Below, in pieces: positions 36,959 to 43,993 of a stretch of 64,000 bases of DNA. Both the position numbers and the translations under genes were made by a program. Every line of letters begins with the position of its first letter. The first letter of the stretch is position 1. The notes beneath the pieces were generated by a model. It had not been told where the DNA came from, ran no database searches, and saw only the letters and a program-made list of their open reading frames with translations. The DNA comes from Hyphomonadaceae bacterium ML37 (GTDB lineage Bacteria; Pseudomonadota; Alphaproteobacteria; Caulobacterales; Maricaulaceae). The stretch is taken from assembly GCA_027627685.1 (NCBI GenBank), contig CP091241.1, forward strand, positions 620,001 to 684,000, written 5' to 3'.

Positions 36959-37169
36959 AACTCCCCAGCCGGCCCGCGCAAATATGAGCGCCGCCCGGGC
37001 GGCTTTCCAACCCCATTGCGCAGACGGAAGTTGGCGCGTCTGCCTGGCCCGAAGCGCAAAACGCTCCAGCAGCCGACGAAAAACGGTTCACACCGGGCGC
37101 GCGCGCACTAACCTCATGTCCACGCGACCGGCCCTCAAAGAGGCTGGCCTACAAGGGGAGGACTTGTCT

Positions 37170-38522
37170 GTGACGGCTGAAACAGACGCGCCGGCCAGCG
37201 CACCTGCGCCGCTGGCCAAACCCGCCCGCGCCTATGCGCTGGGCGTTTTGCTGGTCATCTACATCTTCAATTTTCTTGATCGCCAGATCGTCAACATCCT
37301 CGCCGAGCCGATAAAGAATGATCTGGGCCTTGCCGACTGGCAACTCGGGGTGATGGCGGGCTTCGCGTTCGCGATCTTCTACACGGTGCTGGGCATACCC
37401 ATCGCGCGATACGCCGAGCGGGCCGACCGGGTGAAGATCATTTCCGCCGCTGTGGCGGTGTGGAGCGCCTTCACCATCCTGTGTGGGTTTGCGGGCAATT
37501 TTGTCCAGCTTCTGGCCGCGCGCATCGGGGTGGGCGTGGGCGAGGCAGGCTGTTCGCCGCCGGCCCATTCGCTGATCAGCGACTATACGCCCAAGGAGAA
37601 ACGCGCCTCCGCGCTGGCGCTCTATTCCATGGGCATTCCGCTGGGATCGCTGGCCGGCATGGTGGTCGGCGGCCTGATCGCCGACGCCTATGGCTGGCGT
37701 GTGGCGTTCTTTGTGGCCGGCGCGCCGGGGCTGGTGCTGGCCCTGATCACCTGGCTGACCCTGCCCGAGCCGCGCCGCAAGGGCATGCGCAGCATGACGG
37801 CCGCATCGGCGGCCAGCCGGCCCAGCCTGTCCCAGGCCGCCACAGAGCTGCGATCGAAAAAATCCTTCTGGTGGATCTCGGCCGCCGCCGCCCTCGCGGC
37901 GATGATCGGCTACGGCCACATCACCTTCTACGGCTCATTCTATTTCAGGAATCACGCCGAAGGGCTCGCCGCCATGGCCGAGCAGGTGAATGCCGTGCTG
38001 GGCACCGGCTTCGGGCCCATCGGCTTTCTCGGCACGACGCTGGGTCTGTTGATCGGCATTTGCGGCGCAGCAGGCACGTATCTGGGCGGGATACTCGCCG
38101 ACCGGTCAGCGCGTCTCAATCCGGCGGGCTACGCCATCGTGCCGGGCATCGCCACCGCGCTCACCGTGCCACCCTTCGTGGCGGCCATGCTGGTCCCTGA
38201 TGTCGGCCATTCATTCATTCTGCTGGCCATCCCGGTCTTCCTGGGCGCCATCTGGTACGGACCGGTCTTCGCCAGCGCCCAGAGCCTGGTGGCGCCGCAC
38301 ACCCGCGCCACGGCGGCGGCGGTGCTCTTGTTCATCATCAATCTGGTGGGGCTGGGACTCGGTCCCGTCAGCGTGGGTCTGGTCAGCGATATGCTGGCTG
38401 TGTCCATGGGGGAGGCTGAAGGCCTGCGCTGGTCCATGGTGATTTTCGGCGTTGTGGCGCTGGCCTCGGCGGGCGCCTTCTTCATGGCGGCGCGCACGCT
38501 AAAAGACGAGATCGTGAGCTAG
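37170..38522 (+). CDS. MFS transporter (spinster-like branch)
   Basis: This 450-residue transporter has twelve predicted helices and MFS motifs (FNFLDRQIVNILAEPIKNDL, RIGVGVGEAGCSPPAHSLIS). These resemble the spinster-like group common in alphaproteobacterial accessory pathways. The GTG at 37170 has AAGGGGAGG 8 bases upstream, favouring it over ATG 37116. It converges on the VOC-lipoprotein end of the unusual run (38582-41901), so it could serve that cluster, but there is no direct evidence of shared substrates. Confidence 0.9.
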   Translation: MTAETDAPASAPAPLAKPARAYALGVLLVIYIFNFLDRQIVNILAEPIKNDLGLADWQLGVMAGFAFAIFYTVLGIPIARYAERADRVKIISAAVAVWSAFTILCGFAGNFVQLLAARIGVGVGEAGCSPPAHSLISDYTPKEKRASALALYSMGIPLGSLAGMVVGGLIADAYGWRVAFFVAGAPGLVLALITWLTLPEPRRKGMRSMTAASAASRPSLSQAATELRSKKSFWWISAAAALAAMIGYGHITFYGSFYFRNHAEGLAAMAEQVNAVLGTGFGPIGFLGTTLGLLIGICGAAGTYLGGILADRSARLNPAGYAIVPGIATALTVPPFVAAMLVPDVGHSFILLAIPVFLGAIWYGPVFASAQSLVAPHTRATAAAVLLFIINLVGLGLGPVSVGLVSDMLAVSMGEAEGLRWSMVIFGVVALASAGAFFMAARTLKDEIVS

Positions 38523-38581: not shown

Positions 38582-39166
38582 TCAGTCCCAGTCCAGCGGC
38601 GGATGGACGCGGCGGTTGAGCTCCACGATATGGCCGTCGGGATCGCGGAGCATCGACACCATGACCTGATAGGTCACGCCGTCGCCGGGATATTCGCGCA
38701 GGGTCGGCTCGCTCATCACCCGCACGCCGGGGACCTCTGCGGCAGCTGGGAAGACCGTGTCCAGCTCGCTTGTGTTGAACAACAGCACGACATCGCCGGT
38801 CTCAAAACCGGTTTCCGGCACGTCGGGCGGCGGCGCGTCGCCGGCATTGGCCAGCTGCCACAGGCCGAGCATGCCGATCTGGTCGTCATTGGCTTTCAGG
38901 AGCACCAGGCGCGACTGGCTGGACCCGTCCCGGCTGGTGATCATCTGGTCATAGCTGACGGTCATTCCAAGCGCGTCGCGATAGAGCGCCAGCGAGGCCT
39001 CCAGATCGCGCACCAGCAGGGTGGTGCGGCGCAAATCCAGCGGATTGCGCTCGGCGGCGGCGGCTGGCGGGACCGGTGTTTCCACCGCGCCCGCTGGCGG
39101 CGCTTCATTGCAGGCGGAAAGCGACAGGGCGGCGAGCCCTGCGGTGATGATGGACAGCGTTTTCAT
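38582..39166 (-). CDS. VOC-fold (glyoxalase/dioxygenase-like) lipoprotein
   Basis: This 194-residue protein has a lipoprotein signal (ALSLSACNEAPP) followed by a single VOC domain (RTTLLVRDLEASLALYRDA then LGMTVSYDQ..., ending VSMLRDPDGHIVELNRR). An exported VOC protein is uncommon; most are cytoplasmic. Start 39166 has AAAGGGGG 6 bases upstream. It is the last gene of the tightly spaced leftward run, 23 bases after the CpcT/CpeT-like gene. Substrate unknown; metal ligands would come from the H/E residues of the two beta-alpha modules. Confidence 0.85.
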   Translation of the reverse strand: MKTLSIITAGLAALSLSACNEAPPAGAVETPVPPAAAAERNPLDLRRTTLLVRDLEASLALYRDALGMTVSYDQMITSRDGSSQSRLVLLKANDDQIGMLGLWQLANAGDAPPPDVPETGFETGDVVLLFNTSELDTVFPAAAEVPGVRVMSEPTLREYPGDGVTYQVMVSMLRDPDGHIVELNRRVHPPLDWD

Positions 39167-39189
39167 GGCAACCCCCTTTGGCGTGGACA

Positions 39190-39828
39190 TCAGTCCACCC
39201 TGTCAAACACATAGCCGCCCCGCGCCGGGCCCCAGATCAGCGTGCCCTCGGCGTCGAAGCCGCGGTCCCAGTTGGCGTGTCCCTGGGGGGTGTGGATGGA
39301 GCGCGACACTGTGCGCACCGCGCCGCGCAGGCCCGACGGACAGGTGTCGAAATTCGACTGCCAATAGCCGTGGGCGATGCGGTGCACCTCGCCCGAGCAG
39401 CTCACCGCGCCCAGCTGGTCTTCGGCGATGCGCGCCGGATCGGCGTAGGCCCCCACCACGCTGGCCGGATCATTGAGGCTGTAGATGGTGCGCAGGACCA
39501 GGCGGTTATTCAGCTCCCAGATGCGGATGATGCGCTGGAAATAGGGGCGTTGCTTGATCTCGGGGTCAAAATCGTCCGGGCTGGAGCCCAGGAAAGCGTT
39601 TTCCTGATAGAGCCAGATGCCGTCCTCGCGATCGGGCCAGATGCGCACCGTCTCGCTTTCCACATAGCCCCAGCCCTCGGTACGCGACTGTTCAAGGGTG
39701 GAGAAAGACCCGATCAGCAGGCCCGCCAGCTCGTTGGCGCCGGGATAACCCGGCTCATCGTCCGGCTCCGCGGAGGCGGCCCAGGGCGCGGTGAGGCAAA
39801 GGCACAGTGCGGCGATCAGCATACGCAT
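39190..39828 (-). CDS. Exported CpcT/CpeT-like (bilin lyase fold) protein
   Basis: A signal peptide (MRMLIAALCLCLTAPWAASA) precedes a domain that follows the CpcT/CpeT pattern: ELAGLLIGSFSTLEQSRT at the start, RIWELNNRLVLRTIYSLND, then a conserved Cys region (SNFDTCPSGLRGAVRTVSRS) and the ending DRGFDAEGTLIWGPARGGYV-F. Cyanobacterial members attach bilins to phycobiliproteins; this organism shows no sign of phycobilisomes, so the job must differ. It lies 13 bases after the deacetylase gene. Family assignment is by eye and fairly strong. Confidence 0.75.
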   Translation of the reverse strand: MRMLIAALCLCLTAPWAASAEPDDEPGYPGANELAGLLIGSFSTLEQSRTEGWGYVESETVRIWPDREDGIWLYQENAFLGSSPDDFDPEIKQRPYFQRIIRIWELNNRLVLRTIYSLNDPASVVGAYADPARIAEDQLGAVSCSGEVHRIAHGYWQSNFDTCPSGLRGAVRTVSRSIHTPQGHANWDRGFDAEGTLIWGPARGGYVFDRVD

Positions 39829-39841
39829 GGCGTGTCTCCTG

Positions 39842-40738
39842 TCAGGCTTCGGGCGCCGGCACGGCGGCGGCGAAGGCTTTGGCGATGTCTTCGCGGGTGG
39901 CGATCCAGACGCCGGTTTTGGAGGTCACGTACTCCAGGAAGGCTTCGAACGCGCCGATCCGGCCGGGCCGGCCGATGATGCGAAGATGCAGGCCCAGGCT
40001 CATTATGCGCGCACCCTCCTCGGCGGACTCTTTGCGGAGCCAGTCGAACGTGTCGCAGGCATAGGTCAGCCAGTCCTTCGCGGTCAGGGACGGGTCGAGC
40101 CAGAATTTCATGTCATTGGTGTCGAGCGCGTAGGGCAGGACGATGATCGGCTTGGCCCCAGCGCCGCCGGGCAGATCCACGACATCCCAGAAGGGAAAAT
40201 CGTCCGAGTAATCGTCCATGTGATAGAGATATCCGGCCTGCGCCAGCAGGCCGCGCGTGATGTCCGTATGCAGATAGCGCGACAGCCAGCCCGCCGGGCG
40301 CCGGCCGCAGGTCGCCTCAATGGACGTTCCGGCGCGGTCGATGAAGGCGCGCTCTTTCTCCTCGTCCATGAAGGCCTGGAACTGCCATCGCCAGCCATGG
40401 CTGCACGGCTCGTCACCACGCGCCATCAGGGCCTTGGCGATCCACGGCGCGCGCTCCAGCGCCTGGGCGCACACCGTCCAGGTGGCGGGCGTTCTGTACC
40501 GATCGAGCAGTTTAAGCACCCGCCCTGCGCCGCGATTGATCCCGTACTGATAATTGGTCTCGTTGCCATGCACCCGGATCGGTGCCTTGAGCGTCACGCC
40601 CAGCTCGTCCACCGGTTCGGGACCCTTGTCGCCGTCACGGATATTGCGCTCGGCGCCCTCCTCGACATTGACGACGATGGAGAGGGCGAGCCTGGCGCCA
40701 TTGGGCCAGGTGAAGCCGGGGGGAGGGGTGCGGGTCAT
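39842..40738 (-). CDS. PuuE-like polysaccharide deacetylase / allantoinase family
   Basis: This 298-residue NodB-type deacetylase has the PuuE branch pattern: WPNGARLALSIVVNVEEGAE at the start, YQYGINRGAGRVLKLL, and CSHGWRWQ (residues about 120-127). PuuE itself is a metal-free allantoinase, and relatives act on cyclic or acyl amides. The usual TFD catalytic Asp is replaced (NVEEGAE), as in PuuE. ATG 40738 overlaps the SDR stop (TGATG), so the two are coupled; TTG 40741 is the alternative. Confidence 0.85.
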   Translation of the reverse strand: MTRTPPPGFTWPNGARLALSIVVNVEEGAERNIRDGDKGPEPVDELGVTLKAPIRVHGNETNYQYGINRGAGRVLKLLDRYRTPATWTVCAQALERAPWIAKALMARGDEPCSHGWRWQFQAFMDEEKERAFIDRAGTSIEATCGRRPAGWLSRYLHTDITRGLLAQAGYLYHMDDYSDDFPFWDVVDLPGGAGAKPIIVLPYALDTNDMKFWLDPSLTAKDWLTYACDTFDWLRKESAEEGARIMSLGLHLRIIGRPGRIGAFEAFLEYVTSKTGVWIATREDIAKAFAAAVPAPEA

Positions 40739-41574
40739 CAATGCGGCTCCTCGCCGCCCGACACATTCATGCTTTCCGCCGTGATGTATTCAGCTTCATC
40801 CGAGCACAGGAAGGCGACCGCCTTGGCGGTGTCTTCGGGTTTGCCGGGGCGTTTGAGCGGGATGCGGTCGGCCATGGCCTTGAGGTAATCCTCAACGCTG
40901 GCCGCGCCGACCACCTTGGAGAAATACTCGTTCTGCCAGGCGCCCAGCCCCGTGGTGACGTGGTTGGGGCAAACATTATTGACGGTGATCTGGTGCGGCC
41001 CCAGCTCGATGGCGGCAGAGCGCACGAGACCCACGAGGCCGTGCTTGGAGCTGGTATAGGCCTGGGCGTGGGGGAAGCCGGATTTCGCCGCCTGGCTGGC
41101 GATATTGATGATGCGTCCGCCCTTGCCCTGTTCCACCATCACTTCGGCGGCGGCCTTGATGCCGAAAAAGCACCCGGTCAGATTCACATCGATCACCGCG
41201 CGCCAGTCATTGGCGGTGACGTCCAGCAAAGGCTTCATGATATAGCCGATGCCGGCATTGTTCACCCAGATGTCCAGCGAGCCATGGGTGTCGCGGGCAT
41301 GGTGGGCCAGCGCGCGCATCTGTTCGAGATCGCGCACATCGCACACGCAGGTTGACGCCTGGCCGCCCGCCGCGCGGATGTCCGCCGCGATGGCCTCCAT
41401 CTCGTCGGTCGCGCCGATATGCTGCGCCGGGGTGGCCGGGTCGGCGGCCTGAACGATGTCGGAAATCACCACCGCCGCGCCTTCGGACGCCAGACGCAGG
41501 GCGATGGCCTCGCCCAGCCCCTTGCGACGGCCGGAGCCGGTGACGACGGCGGTCTTGCCGGTAAAGCGTCCCAT
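40738..41574 (-). CDS. SDR-family oxidoreductase
   Basis: This 278-residue short-chain dehydrogenase has TGSGRRKGLG (cofactor loop, residues 12-21), NNAGIGYI, the catalytic YTSSK (Tyr and Lys, about 170-175) and NVCPNHVTTG. The family uses NAD(P)H to oxidise or reduce alcohols and ketones. It begins 12 bases after the HapK-like gene and is coupled to the deacetylase, so it is part of one operon. Substrate unknown. Confidence 0.92.
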   Translation of the reverse strand: MGRFTGKTAVVTGSGRRKGLGEAIALRLASEGAAVVISDIVQAADPATPAQHIGATDEMEAIAADIRAAGGQASTCVCDVRDLEQMRALAHHARDTHGSLDIWVNNAGIGYIMKPLLDVTANDWRAVIDVNLTGCFFGIKAAAEVMVEQGKGGRIINIASQAAKSGFPHAQAYTSSKHGLVGLVRSAAIELGPHQITVNNVCPNHVTTGLGAWQNEYFSKVVGAASVEDYLKAMADRIPLKRPGKPEDTAKAVAFLCSDEAEYITAESMNVSGGEEPH

Positions 41575-41586
41575 GATGCGCCTGCC

Positions 41587-41901
41587 TCAGCCCAGCTTGT
41601 CGGTCAGGATGAAGGAGAGATCGTCGGCCATGGCCTGAAACTCGCCGGCGATTTTCTGCATGGTCTCGGTCGAAACCTCGCCGCCGAATGTCTCCATGTC
41701 GTTCACGTCGATGATCTCGATATAGGCATAGGGCGGTTTGGCGTCGGAGCCGAGCAGGCCGGCCGATTTGAACACCTCGAAGCTGTCCACCGATTTGAGG
41801 CCGTTCACCGTCGGCAGGTCTTTTGCCTTGGCCCAGGCTTCGTAATCGGCGGCGGTGACGCCGGGTTTCAGATTGAACAGGGCGATGATTCGTGTGGTCA
41901 T
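41587..41901 (-). CDS. REDY-like / HapK-type small protein
   Basis: This 104-residue protein has the REDY/HapK pattern (TTRIIALFNLKPGVTAADYE, LPTVNGLKSVDSFEVFKSAG, PPYAYIEIIDVND). Named members come from prodiginine clusters (RedY of Streptomyces, HapK of Hahella), where they assist late tripyrrole chemistry. It is a dimeric ferredoxin-like fold by relation to EthD proteins. The start at 41901 follows a GGAGGA ribosome site. It is the first gene of the leftward operon; the upstream palindrome is at 41986. Confidence 0.8.
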   Translation of the reverse strand: MTTRIIALFNLKPGVTAADYEAWAKAKDLPTVNGLKSVDSFEVFKSAGLLGSDAKPPYAYIEIIDVNDMETFGGEVSTETMQKIAGEFQAMADDLSFILTDKLG

Positions 41902-41985
41902 GGCTGGGTCTCCTCCCCGGATGGGTCCGGCGGCTTGCGGCAAAGCGGCGCATAAGCGCAGGCCATATTGGCGGCGATCGGCTAT

Positions 41986-42001
41986 AAATGGTATATCATT
42001 T
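41986..42001. promoter_or_regulatory. Near-palindromic operator between divergent cluster genes
   Basis: AAATG-GTATAT-CATTT: 14 of 16 bases fit a perfect inverted repeat. Its centre resembles TGGTATACCA-like sites of GntR/FadR-type regulators. It lies 85 bases from the REDY-like start and 74 bases from the methyltransferase start, placed to control both. No regulator gene is adjacent. Confidence 0.6.
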
Positions 42002-42074
42002 GAAATCGGCGGCTTTGCCAAGTCAGTATGCTAAAGAATTACACCGCCGCCAGCCGAGACAGAGGTGAACCGTC

Positions 42075-43310
42075 ATGCCCGAAGACCGCTCCAAGCCCAT
42101 TCTGGCCGATGCGCCGGCCTATGACGGCCCGCCCGATTACCGCCTGGTGGGGCGTCACGGCATGTTTCCCCACACCAGTCATGACGAGACCGAGCGCTTC
42201 AATTTCCTCGCCCACATGAACCGCCATCTGGCCAGCCGCGTGCTGCCCGGCGTGAAGGATGCGTTCGAGGCGCGGGTCGAACCGGCGCGCACGCGTAAAG
42301 AGGGTCCGTTCAAATCCCGCCACGACGTGCGCAAGGCGCTCACCGCCGATCCGGCCTTCCAGATATGGTCGGCCCTGCGCCGCGCCACCATGGAACAGCG
42401 CCAGCAGGCCGGGCGCTGGGTCACGCTGCGCCAGGGCGAGGCGCTCAACGCCCGCGCCGCGGAGCTGACCGATGGCGATGACCGGCTCGAGCTGGACGCG
42501 GCCTTCGAGACTCCGCGCTATCTGGCGGCGGTGGACCATCACTGCATGCCCGGCAGCTATCACACCGAAATCGTGCCCGGCGATATCACCGGCGCGGCCA
42601 ATTATGATTGCGGCCTGTTCGCCACCACGGGCGGGGCGCTGGGCCGGTATAATGATGGCGGCGGCCAGGCGGTGGCGGCCTGGGTGAAGAAGAATTTGCC
42701 GGACTTCAAGCCCAGACGCATTCTCGATCTGGGCTGCGGGCTTGGCCATAACGTGCTGCCGCTGGCTGAAGCCTTCCCGGACGCGGAAGTGGTTGGCGTG
42801 GATTCCGGCGCGCCCATGCTGCGCTACGGGCTGGCGCGCGCCAAGGCGATGGGGGTGGAGAATGTCCGCTTCATCCAGGCCGACGCCGAGGATCTCTCAC
42901 GCTTCGCCGATGACAGCTTTGACTGGGTGCAGACCACCATGTTCCTGCACGAAACCAGCAAGAGCGCCATGGAGCGCATTTTCGCCGAGACACGCCGGGT
43001 GCTCAAACCCGGCGGCATCGTGCTGCACGTCGAGCAGCCGCAATACACCGACGCGATGCCGCTCTATGAGCAGGCGATCCGCGACTGGGATGCGTTCTAC
43101 AATAACGAGCCGTTCTGGACGACCATGCACGAGATCGATCTCGATGACCTGATGATCCGCGCCGGCTTCAAGGATGACAGCGTGCTCCATGGCGGCGTGG
43201 CCGCGGTGGTGGACGCCAAGCTGTTCCCGTCATCGGGCGAGGACGCCGTCGAGGACTACGGGCGCAAGGCCGCCTGGCATGTCATCGGCGCCAAGAAGGA
43301 AGCCGCGTAA
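42075..43310 (+). CDS. Class I SAM methyltransferase with large N-terminal extension
   Basis: The C-terminal half of this 411-residue protein (about 205-390) is a Methyltransf_11 domain: RRILDLGCGLGHNVLPLAEA then FPDAEVVGVDSG, DDSFDWVQTTMFLHE, and RRVLKPGGIVLHVEQP. The first 200 residues form an unfamiliar domain (FPHTSHDETERFNFLAHMNR; later DHHCMPGSYHTEIV) that looks family-specific rather than a known partner. GAGGTGAACCGTC precedes the ATG. It is divergent from the REDY-like operon and is coupled to the next gene by a 1-base overlap (TAATG). Confidence 0.85.
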   Translation: MPEDRSKPILADAPAYDGPPDYRLVGRHGMFPHTSHDETERFNFLAHMNRHLASRVLPGVKDAFEARVEPARTRKEGPFKSRHDVRKALTADPAFQIWSALRRATMEQRQQAGRWVTLRQGEALNARAAELTDGDDRLELDAAFETPRYLAAVDHHCMPGSYHTEIVPGDITGAANYDCGLFATTGGALGRYNDGGGQAVAAWVKKNLPDFKPRRILDLGCGLGHNVLPLAEAFPDAEVVGVDSGAPMLRYGLARAKAMGVENVRFIQADAEDLSRFADDSFDWVQTTMFLHETSKSAMERIFAETRRVLKPGGIVLHVEQPQYTDAMPLYEQAIRDWDAFYNNEPFWTTMHEIDLDDLMIRAGFKDDSVLHGGVAAVVDAKLFPSSGEDAVEDYGRKAAWHVIGAKKEAA

Positions 43311-43666
43311 TGACGTTTGACCCCCTCTCTCAGGCCGGCGCCAAGGCACGCGGCAAGCGGCCCTGGTTTCTGGAAAGTCAGGACGCCGAGCGCGTCATGA
43401 ACATCGTCATGGCGCTGGCCCAGGAAGTCTCGGTGATGCGCCAGCGCCTCGACACAGTGGAGCGGCTTCTGGAGACGCGCGGCGTCATCACCCGCGCCGA
43501 TATCGAGGCCTTCACGCCCACCAAGGCCGAGGCTGATGAACGCGGCGCGTGGAATCAGGAATTCATCGCCCGCATCCTGCGCATCGTGCAGCAGGAGAAC
43601 GAAGCGATCACTCGTCCCGACGAGGTGAGCTCGGAAGACGCCGCGCGCGAGTTCCAGGACCATTAG
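43310..43666 (+). CDS. Small helical protein of unknown function (118 aa)
   Basis: This 118-residue acidic protein is probably helical: SQDAERVMNIVMALAQEVSV then MRQRLDTVERLLETRGV could form a coiled coil (residues 24-60). It ends in an acidic tail. It is translationally coupled to the methyltransferase (TAATG) and so is probably its partner or subunit. I recognise no family. Its stop overlaps the stop of the convergent hicB-like gene. Confidence 0.75.
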   Translation: MTFDPLSQAGAKARGKRPWFLESQDAERVMNIVMALAQEVSVMRQRLDTVERLLETRGVITRADIEAFTPTKAEADERGAWNQEFIARILRIVQQENEAITRPDEVSSEDAAREFQDH

Positions 43667-43926
43667 GTGCTGCCGGCCTGAAGCGTGATGTACACCGCGA
43701 GGCCGTTGCCGATTTTCGCGCCGGTCATCCCGCTCAGGTTTGAAGGCTCCGGCATCGCCCAACCGTCTTCCAGCAGCCCTTCGACGTGAAACGCCAGGGC
43801 TTCCTGCGCCATGGCCCGGGCCTTATCAAGCGTCGCGCCAGCCGCAATGCAGCCGGGAAAATCCGGGAAGGACACCCCGAAATCGCTGTCGTCGTCCTTG
43901 TGGATGAGGGCGATGTACTCGGCCAT
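43663..43926 (-). CDS. HicB-family antitoxin-like protein (no HicA seen)
   Basis: This 87-residue protein matches the HicB N-terminal fold: YIALIHKDDDSDFGVSFPDF then PGCIAAGATLDKARAMAQEA. The usual C-terminal DNA-binding part is short (NLSGMTGAKIGNGLAVYITLQ is not obviously ribbon-helix-helix). No hicA ORF of about 60 residues is adjacent on either side, so it appears to be an orphan. The ATG at 43926 begins the fold; an extended start at 43950 adds RGYCGR. Confidence 0.75.
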   Translation of the reverse strand: MAEYIALIHKDDDSDFGVSFPDFPGCIAAGATLDKARAMAQEALAFHVEGLLEDGWAMPEPSNLSGMTGAKIGNGLAVYITLQAGST

Positions 43927-43993
43927 GCGGCCACAATATCCGCGCCTCATTGATCTGAAAAGCGGCCGTTGGGCGGGGCGTAATACCCGCCTC

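Follow-up and report, generated by a model that had tools for sequence, protein, structure and literature searches.

A conserved and partly operator-linked gene set in Hyphomonadaceae bacterium ML37 and its relatives, probably a catabolic regulon for a nitrogen heterocycle

Why should a bacterium keep side by side genes whose relatives are known from prodiginine clusters (HapK/RedY), bilin attachment (CpcT/CpeT) and allantoin hydrolysis (PuuE)? The question is raised by seven genes in a stretch of 64,000 nucleotides from Hyphomonadaceae bacterium ML37 (contig CP091241.1, positions 620,001 to 684,000; hereafter the window). Five of them form a leftward operon encoding a HapK-like protein, an SDR oxidoreductase, a PuuE-like hydrolase, a CpeT-like protein and a VOC-family lipoprotein, while a methyltransferase (MT) and a small protein are encoded divergently (Table 1). 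We consider it probable that the cluster forms the core of a regulon, dispersed over the genome, for the uptake and degradation of a nitrogen heterocycle. That the gene set is a catabolic regulon we hold with high confidence; that its nitrogen step acts on a cyclic imide or lactam appears rather likely.

Gene order was compared in 80 named loci found with a profile of the methyltransferase, and the open reading frames around MT in 91 loci and in the window were clustered and named by Pfam and NCBIfam. The small protein adjoins MT in 78 of the 80 named loci. The SDR gene lies divergently upstream of MT in 38, its orthologues being 70–97% identical, a PuuE-like gene does so in 33, and HapK faces MT in 32. 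In 21 loci HapK, SDR and PuuE form one run facing MT, the VOC lipoprotein is found on the same side in 11, and 8 loci possess all seven genes. Names attached to the loci include Hyphomonas, Parvularcula, Hirschia, Brevundimonas, Caulobacter, Novosphingobium, Sphingobium, Nitrospirillum and Azospirillum, with further loci from metagenome-assembled genomes (MAGs) and other records labelled Gammaproteobacteria, Deltaproteobacteria, Saprospiraceae, Cytophagales and Nostoc (the MAG labels being unchecked); near relatives of the source genome are Alkalicaulis satelles and MAGs labelled Oceanicaulis. Order and adjacency thereby repeat across families and orders. CpeT homologues occur twice in one Saprospiraceae-labelled locus (L124), and for this reason the CpeT link is not merely an accident of lineage. 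A sequence-only reading of the window had proposed that these genes form a functional unit, a proposal that scattered homologues in most genomes would have contradicted; the comparison gave the opposite outcome.

The strongest evidence for one regulon is a palindromic operator, since the motif, derived from the window sequence only, went on to predict other loci. The 173 bases that separate the divergently transcribed HapK and MT genes contain the palindrome ATGGTATATCAT. Its consensus, WTGRTATAYCAW, is present at five exact sites in the genome (a single contig of 3,038,461 bases) against 0.19 expected from base composition, and a reversed control pattern has no site in the same genome. All five precede pathway-type genes whose families adjoin the cluster in other organisms. 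The same palindrome is found at the matching place in the HapK/MT region of relatives, which also bear it before MFS, MAO, memb7, DUF1838, TonB, VOC2 and GntR genes. Over 61 genomes, 76 sites were counted in the 19 with the cluster (mean 4.0) and 18 in the 42 without (mean 0.43, near the control rate), an enrichment reached by none of 200,000 permutations. The likely regulator of these sites is a HutC-type GntR protein, a candidate suggested by its co-occurrence with the cluster (at least 50% identity, in 17 of the 19 cluster genomes and 1 of the 42 others) and by a GntR relative in locus L035 that is flanked by two operator sites. The protein at L145:9297-10118 combines the GntR helix-turn-helix domain (PF00392, 65.3 bits) with a UTRA domain (PF07702, 107.9 bits) and so belongs to the HutC type.

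Much of the gene set lies elsewhere on the chromosome. At 2.17 Mb (2171276-2176908) the genome carries an operon of HpcH, MaoC, acyl-CoA dehydrogenase and two CaiB genes, which are 71–93% identical to genes standing beside PuuE-SDR-HapK in relatives. A third locus (2572166-2577923) encodes a CN_hydrolase, a GntR-UTRA regulator, a membrane-protein paralogue, an FAD_binding_4 oxidase and an aldehyde dehydrogenase, kinds of genes that adjoin MT in Brevundimonas- and Novosphingobium-type loci. Orthologues of MT (at least 67% identity) and of MaoC (at least 83%) occur in exactly the same 19 of the 61 relatives' genomes, though they are unlinked in many (Fisher 3e-16, not corrected for phylogeny and thus overstated, because the genomes are related). 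HapK orthologues (at least 61% identity) were found in 16 of these 19 and only in cluster genomes, and memb7 in 17 of the 19 but none of the 42 others. In the genus to which the window belongs, the set is present in nine genomes and missing from six. What had been described as a seven-gene unit is a fragment of a larger set, some twenty genes dispersed over the chromosome and partly operator-linked.

The recurrent partners near MT indicate what the set does. They are CaiB CoA-transferases, acyl-CoA dehydrogenase, MaoC hydratase and HpcH/HpaI lyase, accompanied by an isochorismatase-type amidase, tandem PuuE-like proteins, LeuCD, HMGL, MmgE/PrpD and FAD oxidases, and further by CN_hydrolase, amidase, HyuAB, TonB receptors, MFS, DUF1838, DUF1330, DUF3598 and GntR proteins. 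A PEP-mutase/ICL-type lyase occurs in L067, and an Amdase-type protein in Caulobacter and in L046. In the 2.17-Mb operon, the closest families are RipC/Ccl for HpcH, RipB/Ich for MaoC and, among others, succinyl-CoA:mesaconate CoA-transferase for the CoA-transferases. The lower enzymes vary between lineages; judged from the chemistry of their families, those of all lineages would suit substituted succinate or maleate intermediates.

We favour the following scheme. A TonB receptor would admit the substrate; in the periplasm it would be held by the CpeT-fold protein, perhaps together with the VOC lipoprotein, and an MFS carrier would move it across the inner membrane. HapK, SDR, the MT-small protein pair and flavin or VOC proteins may then modify it and break it down to cyclic imides or lactams with five-membered rings, which the PuuE-like hydrolase would open and from which an amidase would release ammonia. 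The resulting substituted succinate or maleate would be activated by CaiB-type CoA-transferases, desaturated by the acyl-CoA dehydrogenase, hydrated by the RipB/Ich-like MaoC protein and cleaved by the RipC/Ccl-like lyase to acetyl- or propionyl-CoA and a 2-oxoacid. The HutC-type GntR protein would respond to an intermediate and control the operators. The cyclic-amide pathway raised by the sequence-only reading fits well, and PuuE-related imidases have a precedent in ring catabolism, namely HxnM, as well as the Pseudomonas putida imidase (PMC9304392).

The proteins themselves are in keeping with their family names, as the six that had been assigned to families all exceed the Pfam cut-offs: HapK 44.7 bits (cut-off 25), adh_short_C2 193.7 (27), Polysacc_deac_1 43.1 (23.1), CpeT 61.5 (21), Glyoxalase 33.2 (20.6) and Methyltransf_25 85.1 (27). 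The PuuE-like protein matches the PuuE structures 3cl6 and 1z7a over residues 6–295 (E about 1e-60) and largely keeps the PuuE signatures NYEEGGER, CSHGYRW and RLIGRP (as NVEEGAER, CSHGWRW and RIIGRP). By its sequence it is a member of the PuuE-type NodB-fold cyclic amidohydrolases, and the hydrolysis of a cyclic amide is the predicted activity. Unlike PuuE allantoinase of the ureide pathway, with which it shares fold family and signature segments, it scores only 221.2 bits against the NCBIfam cut-off of 424.6 (TIGR03212), and no purine-catabolism genes were recognised among the conserved cluster neighbours. PuuE allantoinase proper was accordingly rejected, as was purine (allantoin) use, no ureide genes being recognised among those neighbours either.

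Both Pfam score and fold place the CpeT-like protein in the CpcT/CpeT family. Its structure model (predicted local distance difference test, pLDDT, 88.8) is closest to plant CRL (Z 21.2), CpcT (19.8, 4o4o), CpcT with phycocyanobilin (19.7) and phage CpeT (16.7), the next matches falling to Z 11.7, with DUF3598, of the same barrel fold, at Z 10.1. In contrast to the phycobiliprotein lyases and CRL, to which it is about 18–21% identical, it is linked to degradative genes and probably carries a signal peptide, as its N-terminus reads as one. A periplasmic ligand binder is for that reason likelier than a lyase, and from the model we predict a bilin-type ligand. The HapK-like protein also matches PDB 2jdj (E 2.4e-6) and differs from HapK/RedY of prodiginine clusters in its setting, as it lies outside any such cluster and is accompanied by the SDR and degradative partners. 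A loose lead is a gene named HapK, which may be a different one from the window HapK, that is upregulated 1.9-fold with a lignin dimer in a marine Novosphingobium (PMC4609964).

MT is a class I S-adenosylmethionine (SAM) methyltransferase with a conserved motif I, ILDLGCGLGHN, in its SAM-binding Rossmann domain. Its first 200 or so residues fall below every Pfam cut-off. The N-terminal domain (about residues 20–195) is conserved and mostly helical, with about 20 invariant residues ahead of position 125 in an alignment of 37 homologues, and the structure model (pLDDT 83.6) has helices at 36–76, 82–89, 93–119 and 121–132. Structure prediction, suggested earlier for both proteins, recognised the fold of the CpeT-like protein, while for the full-length MT model it returned an ordinary Rossmann domain (Z about 15), the matches spanning that domain. 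A Pfam search with the small protein gave no family above cut-off.

Several points weigh against the proposed regulon for heterocycle degradation. The window holds no obvious ring- or bridge-cleaving oxygenase, and the scheme leaves unexplained why a degradative pathway should include a methyltransferase. Scores of the PuuE-like and Rip-like proteins fall under the curated equivalog cut-offs (for the latter, RipB 225.3 bits against 340 and RipC 219.5 against 375), so that their substrates are probably unlike the named ones. The 2.17-Mb operon carries no copy of the operator, not even within one mismatch. HapK is absent from one family (G039, G047 and G055; L064-L070), where another VOC gene (c46) stands in the cluster.

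Four other explanations were considered. A chance assembly of unrelated genes whose order is conserved by lineage could draw on the surrounding synteny that close relatives share (L048, L050), but the same partners recur in differing orders and in distant taxa, and the identical presence and absence of the unlinked operon, the shared operator and the distribution of memb7 largely refute it; its probability is negligible. Biosynthesis, one hypothesis of the sequence-only reading, would have HapK, SDR, MT and partners make a pyrrole or pigment product, in keeping with the family name HapK/RedY and its match to 2jdj from prodiginine clusters and with the presence of a methyltransferase. We reject it as most improbable because the conserved partners are genes for import (TonB, MFS) and degradation (CoA-transferases, acyl-CoA dehydrogenase, hydratase, C–C lyase, amidases, ring hydrolases). 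No prodiginine condensation or bipyrrole genes were recognised among the annotated conserved neighbour families, and membership in a prodiginine biosynthesis cluster was discarded on this basis.

The remaining two explanations retain degradation and narrow the substrate. If only branched dicarboxylates such as itaconate, mesaconate or methylsuccinate were degraded, the PuuE-like, HapK and CpeT proteins being accessory with other roles, the closest families of the HpcH, MaoC and CoA-transferase proteins would be accounted for, as itaconate degradation (Rip/Ict-Ich-Ccl) and the mesaconyl-CoA/citramalyl-CoA modules use the same kinds of enzyme for CoA transfer, hydration and C–C cleavage. The system described here has, beyond these, uptake by TonB as well as a ring hydrolase, an acyl-CoA dehydrogenase and a second CoA-transferase. 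C5 acids need no TonB receptor. Few partners are conserved as well as the PuuE-like gene, relatives possess many C–N hydrolases, and the scores lie well under the Rip cut-offs, on which ground plain itaconate use was rejected; we regard the dicarboxylate explanation as improbable. Breakdown of an alkylpyridine, a nicotinate-type compound or an alkaloid ring, without a tetrapyrrole and along a route resembling the hxn pathway of Aspergillus or the nicotinate pathways of bacteria, is a special case of heterocycle degradation that we consider possible, if rather unlikely. In its favour are the FAD monooxygenase and Amdase-type proteins of Caulobacter and G340 loci, and also LeuCD and the PEP-mutase/ICL-type lyase in L067, which we take to resemble two enzymes of nicotinate fermentation, dimethylmaleate hydratase and dimethylmalate lyase. 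The succession of imidase and amidase matches the Aspergillus nidulans hxn nicotinate pathway, where a PuuE-related cyclic imide hydrolase (HxnM) is followed by an amidase (HxnN; PMC9304392). The hxn lower route, however, ends in hydroxyglutarate rather than in CoA-dependent cleavage of branched dicarboxylates, and the window has no hxn-type ring hydroxylase. No ring hydroxylase is common to all loci, the CpcT-fold proteins and HapK are left unaccounted for, and the presence of a TonB receptor points to a substrate that is large or scarce.

Within the favoured reading of a heterocycle-degrading regulon, tetrapyrrole (bilin) fragments are our best, though tentative, guess for the substrate, one that we would not expect to prove right on present evidence but take seriously. 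It draws on the CpcT fold combined with an export signal, on HapK and uptake through TonB, on a DUF3598-type protein that relatives carry, and on fitting chemistry. Alkylmaleimides and lactams are known oxidation products of haem and bilins. Methylvinylmaleimide and haematinic acid are mentioned in this setting (PMC10343206, PMC9941200). The regulon might, with the same reserve, import bilins, the open-chain tetrapyrroles derived from haem, chlorophyll or phycobiliproteins, and mineralise them: the CpcT-fold protein would bind bilin in the periplasm, HapK, SDR, MT-small and flavin proteins would cleave the bridges or modify the molecule, enzymes of the PuuE-like and HyuAB types would open the resulting alkylmaleimides and lactams, and the branched-dicarboxyl-CoA enzymes would complete the breakdown. 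Record names of several source MAGs suggest cyanobacterial consortia, which is circumstantial. Against a tetrapyrrole stand the TonB receptors, for which family searches gave only generic similarity to siderophore, haem and B12 receptors and no substrate, and the fact that no bridge-cleaving enzyme was identified. The earlier hint at pyrroles may yet be right in reverse, as tetrapyrrole breakdown.

The coordinates are collected in Table 1. The seven reading frames, their spacing and divergent arrangement are as first described, and recomputed gaps in the leftward operon (23, 13, -1 and 12 bases from VOC to HapK) agree. The ATG of the PuuE-like gene overlaps the SDR stop by one base, and MT and the small protein gene likewise share one base (TAATG). 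The sequence-only reading overlooked the converging MFS transporter, the conserved palindrome and the location of most of the system elsewhere in the genome. MFS homologues (43–44%) lie near VOC-lipoprotein genes and MT in the distant loci L098, L099 and L101, and a homologue is similarly placed in L102.

Table 1. Genes and operator of the cluster, flanking genes, and operator sites in the genome (window coordinates unless stated)
Feature	Position	Strand	Remarks
MFS transporter	37110..38522	+	converges on VOC gene; Pfam MFS_1; probable cluster member (substrate or product transport)
VOC-family lipoprotein	38582..39166	-	Pfam Glyoxalase; lipobox LSAC read from sequence
CpcT/CpeT-fold protein, probably exported	39190..39828	-	Pfam CpeT PF06206
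PuuE-like (NodB-fold) cyclic-amide hydrolase (predicted), 298 aa	39842..40738	-	Pfam Polysacc_deac_1
SDR oxidoreductase, 278 aa	40738..41574	-	Pfam adh_short_C2
HapK/REDY-like protein, 104 aa	41587..41901	-	first gene of leftward operon; Pfam PF11639
Palindromic operator	41988..41999		between divergent HapK and MT genes
Class I SAM methyltransferase (MT)	42075..43310	+	Methyltransf_25 at residues 216-314
Small protein, 118 aa	43310..43666	+	translationally coupled to MT; no known family
HicB-like antitoxin gene	43663..43950	-	directly past small protein; 71.7 bits
Operator sites in genome			HapK/MT (window); c28 (lipoprotein-like) + VOC2 (two-domain VOC protein), 1.04 Mb; DUF1838 and TonB receptor, 1.19 Mb; memb7 (small membrane protein), 2.28 Mb

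Some observations concern individual loci. A HicB-like neighbour (67–86% identity) also adjoins the cluster in several close relatives. The c46 VOC gene of L064-L070 is possibly a non-homologous replacement of HapK. One genome (G340:C16:223000-262000) has two MT-type systems with different partner sets (L045 and L046) within about 25 kb, one of which carries an FAD monooxygenase, an Amdase-type protein and HyuAB. MT-small-SnoaL-like genes lie near an amidohydrolase gene in a record titled Nostoc sp. LEGE 12450 (L119), which may be cyanobacterial or a contaminant, and divergent MT homologues (33–34%) with GntR relatives on the same contigs (G027:C9, L023; G056:C1, L024) probably represent a paralogous system.

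The gene set of these bacteria from water and soil, to which relatives labelled Nostoc and Saprospiraceae are added, is large, co-regulated and strongly conserved, and as far as found no function has been described for it: literature searches on the gene combination, on maleimide or bilin degradation and on HapK in catabolism, in a collection largely without subscription journals, gave no description. It brings families that have little more than a name (HapK outside prodiginines, secreted CpeT, DUF1838 and the MT-small pair) into one common pathway. If the substrate is indeed a tetrapyrrole, the set would bear on a long-standing question, namely by what route haem, chlorophyll and phycobilins give their nitrogen and carbon back to the environment past the linear bilin, and, if this were proven, would represent a new kind of pathway.

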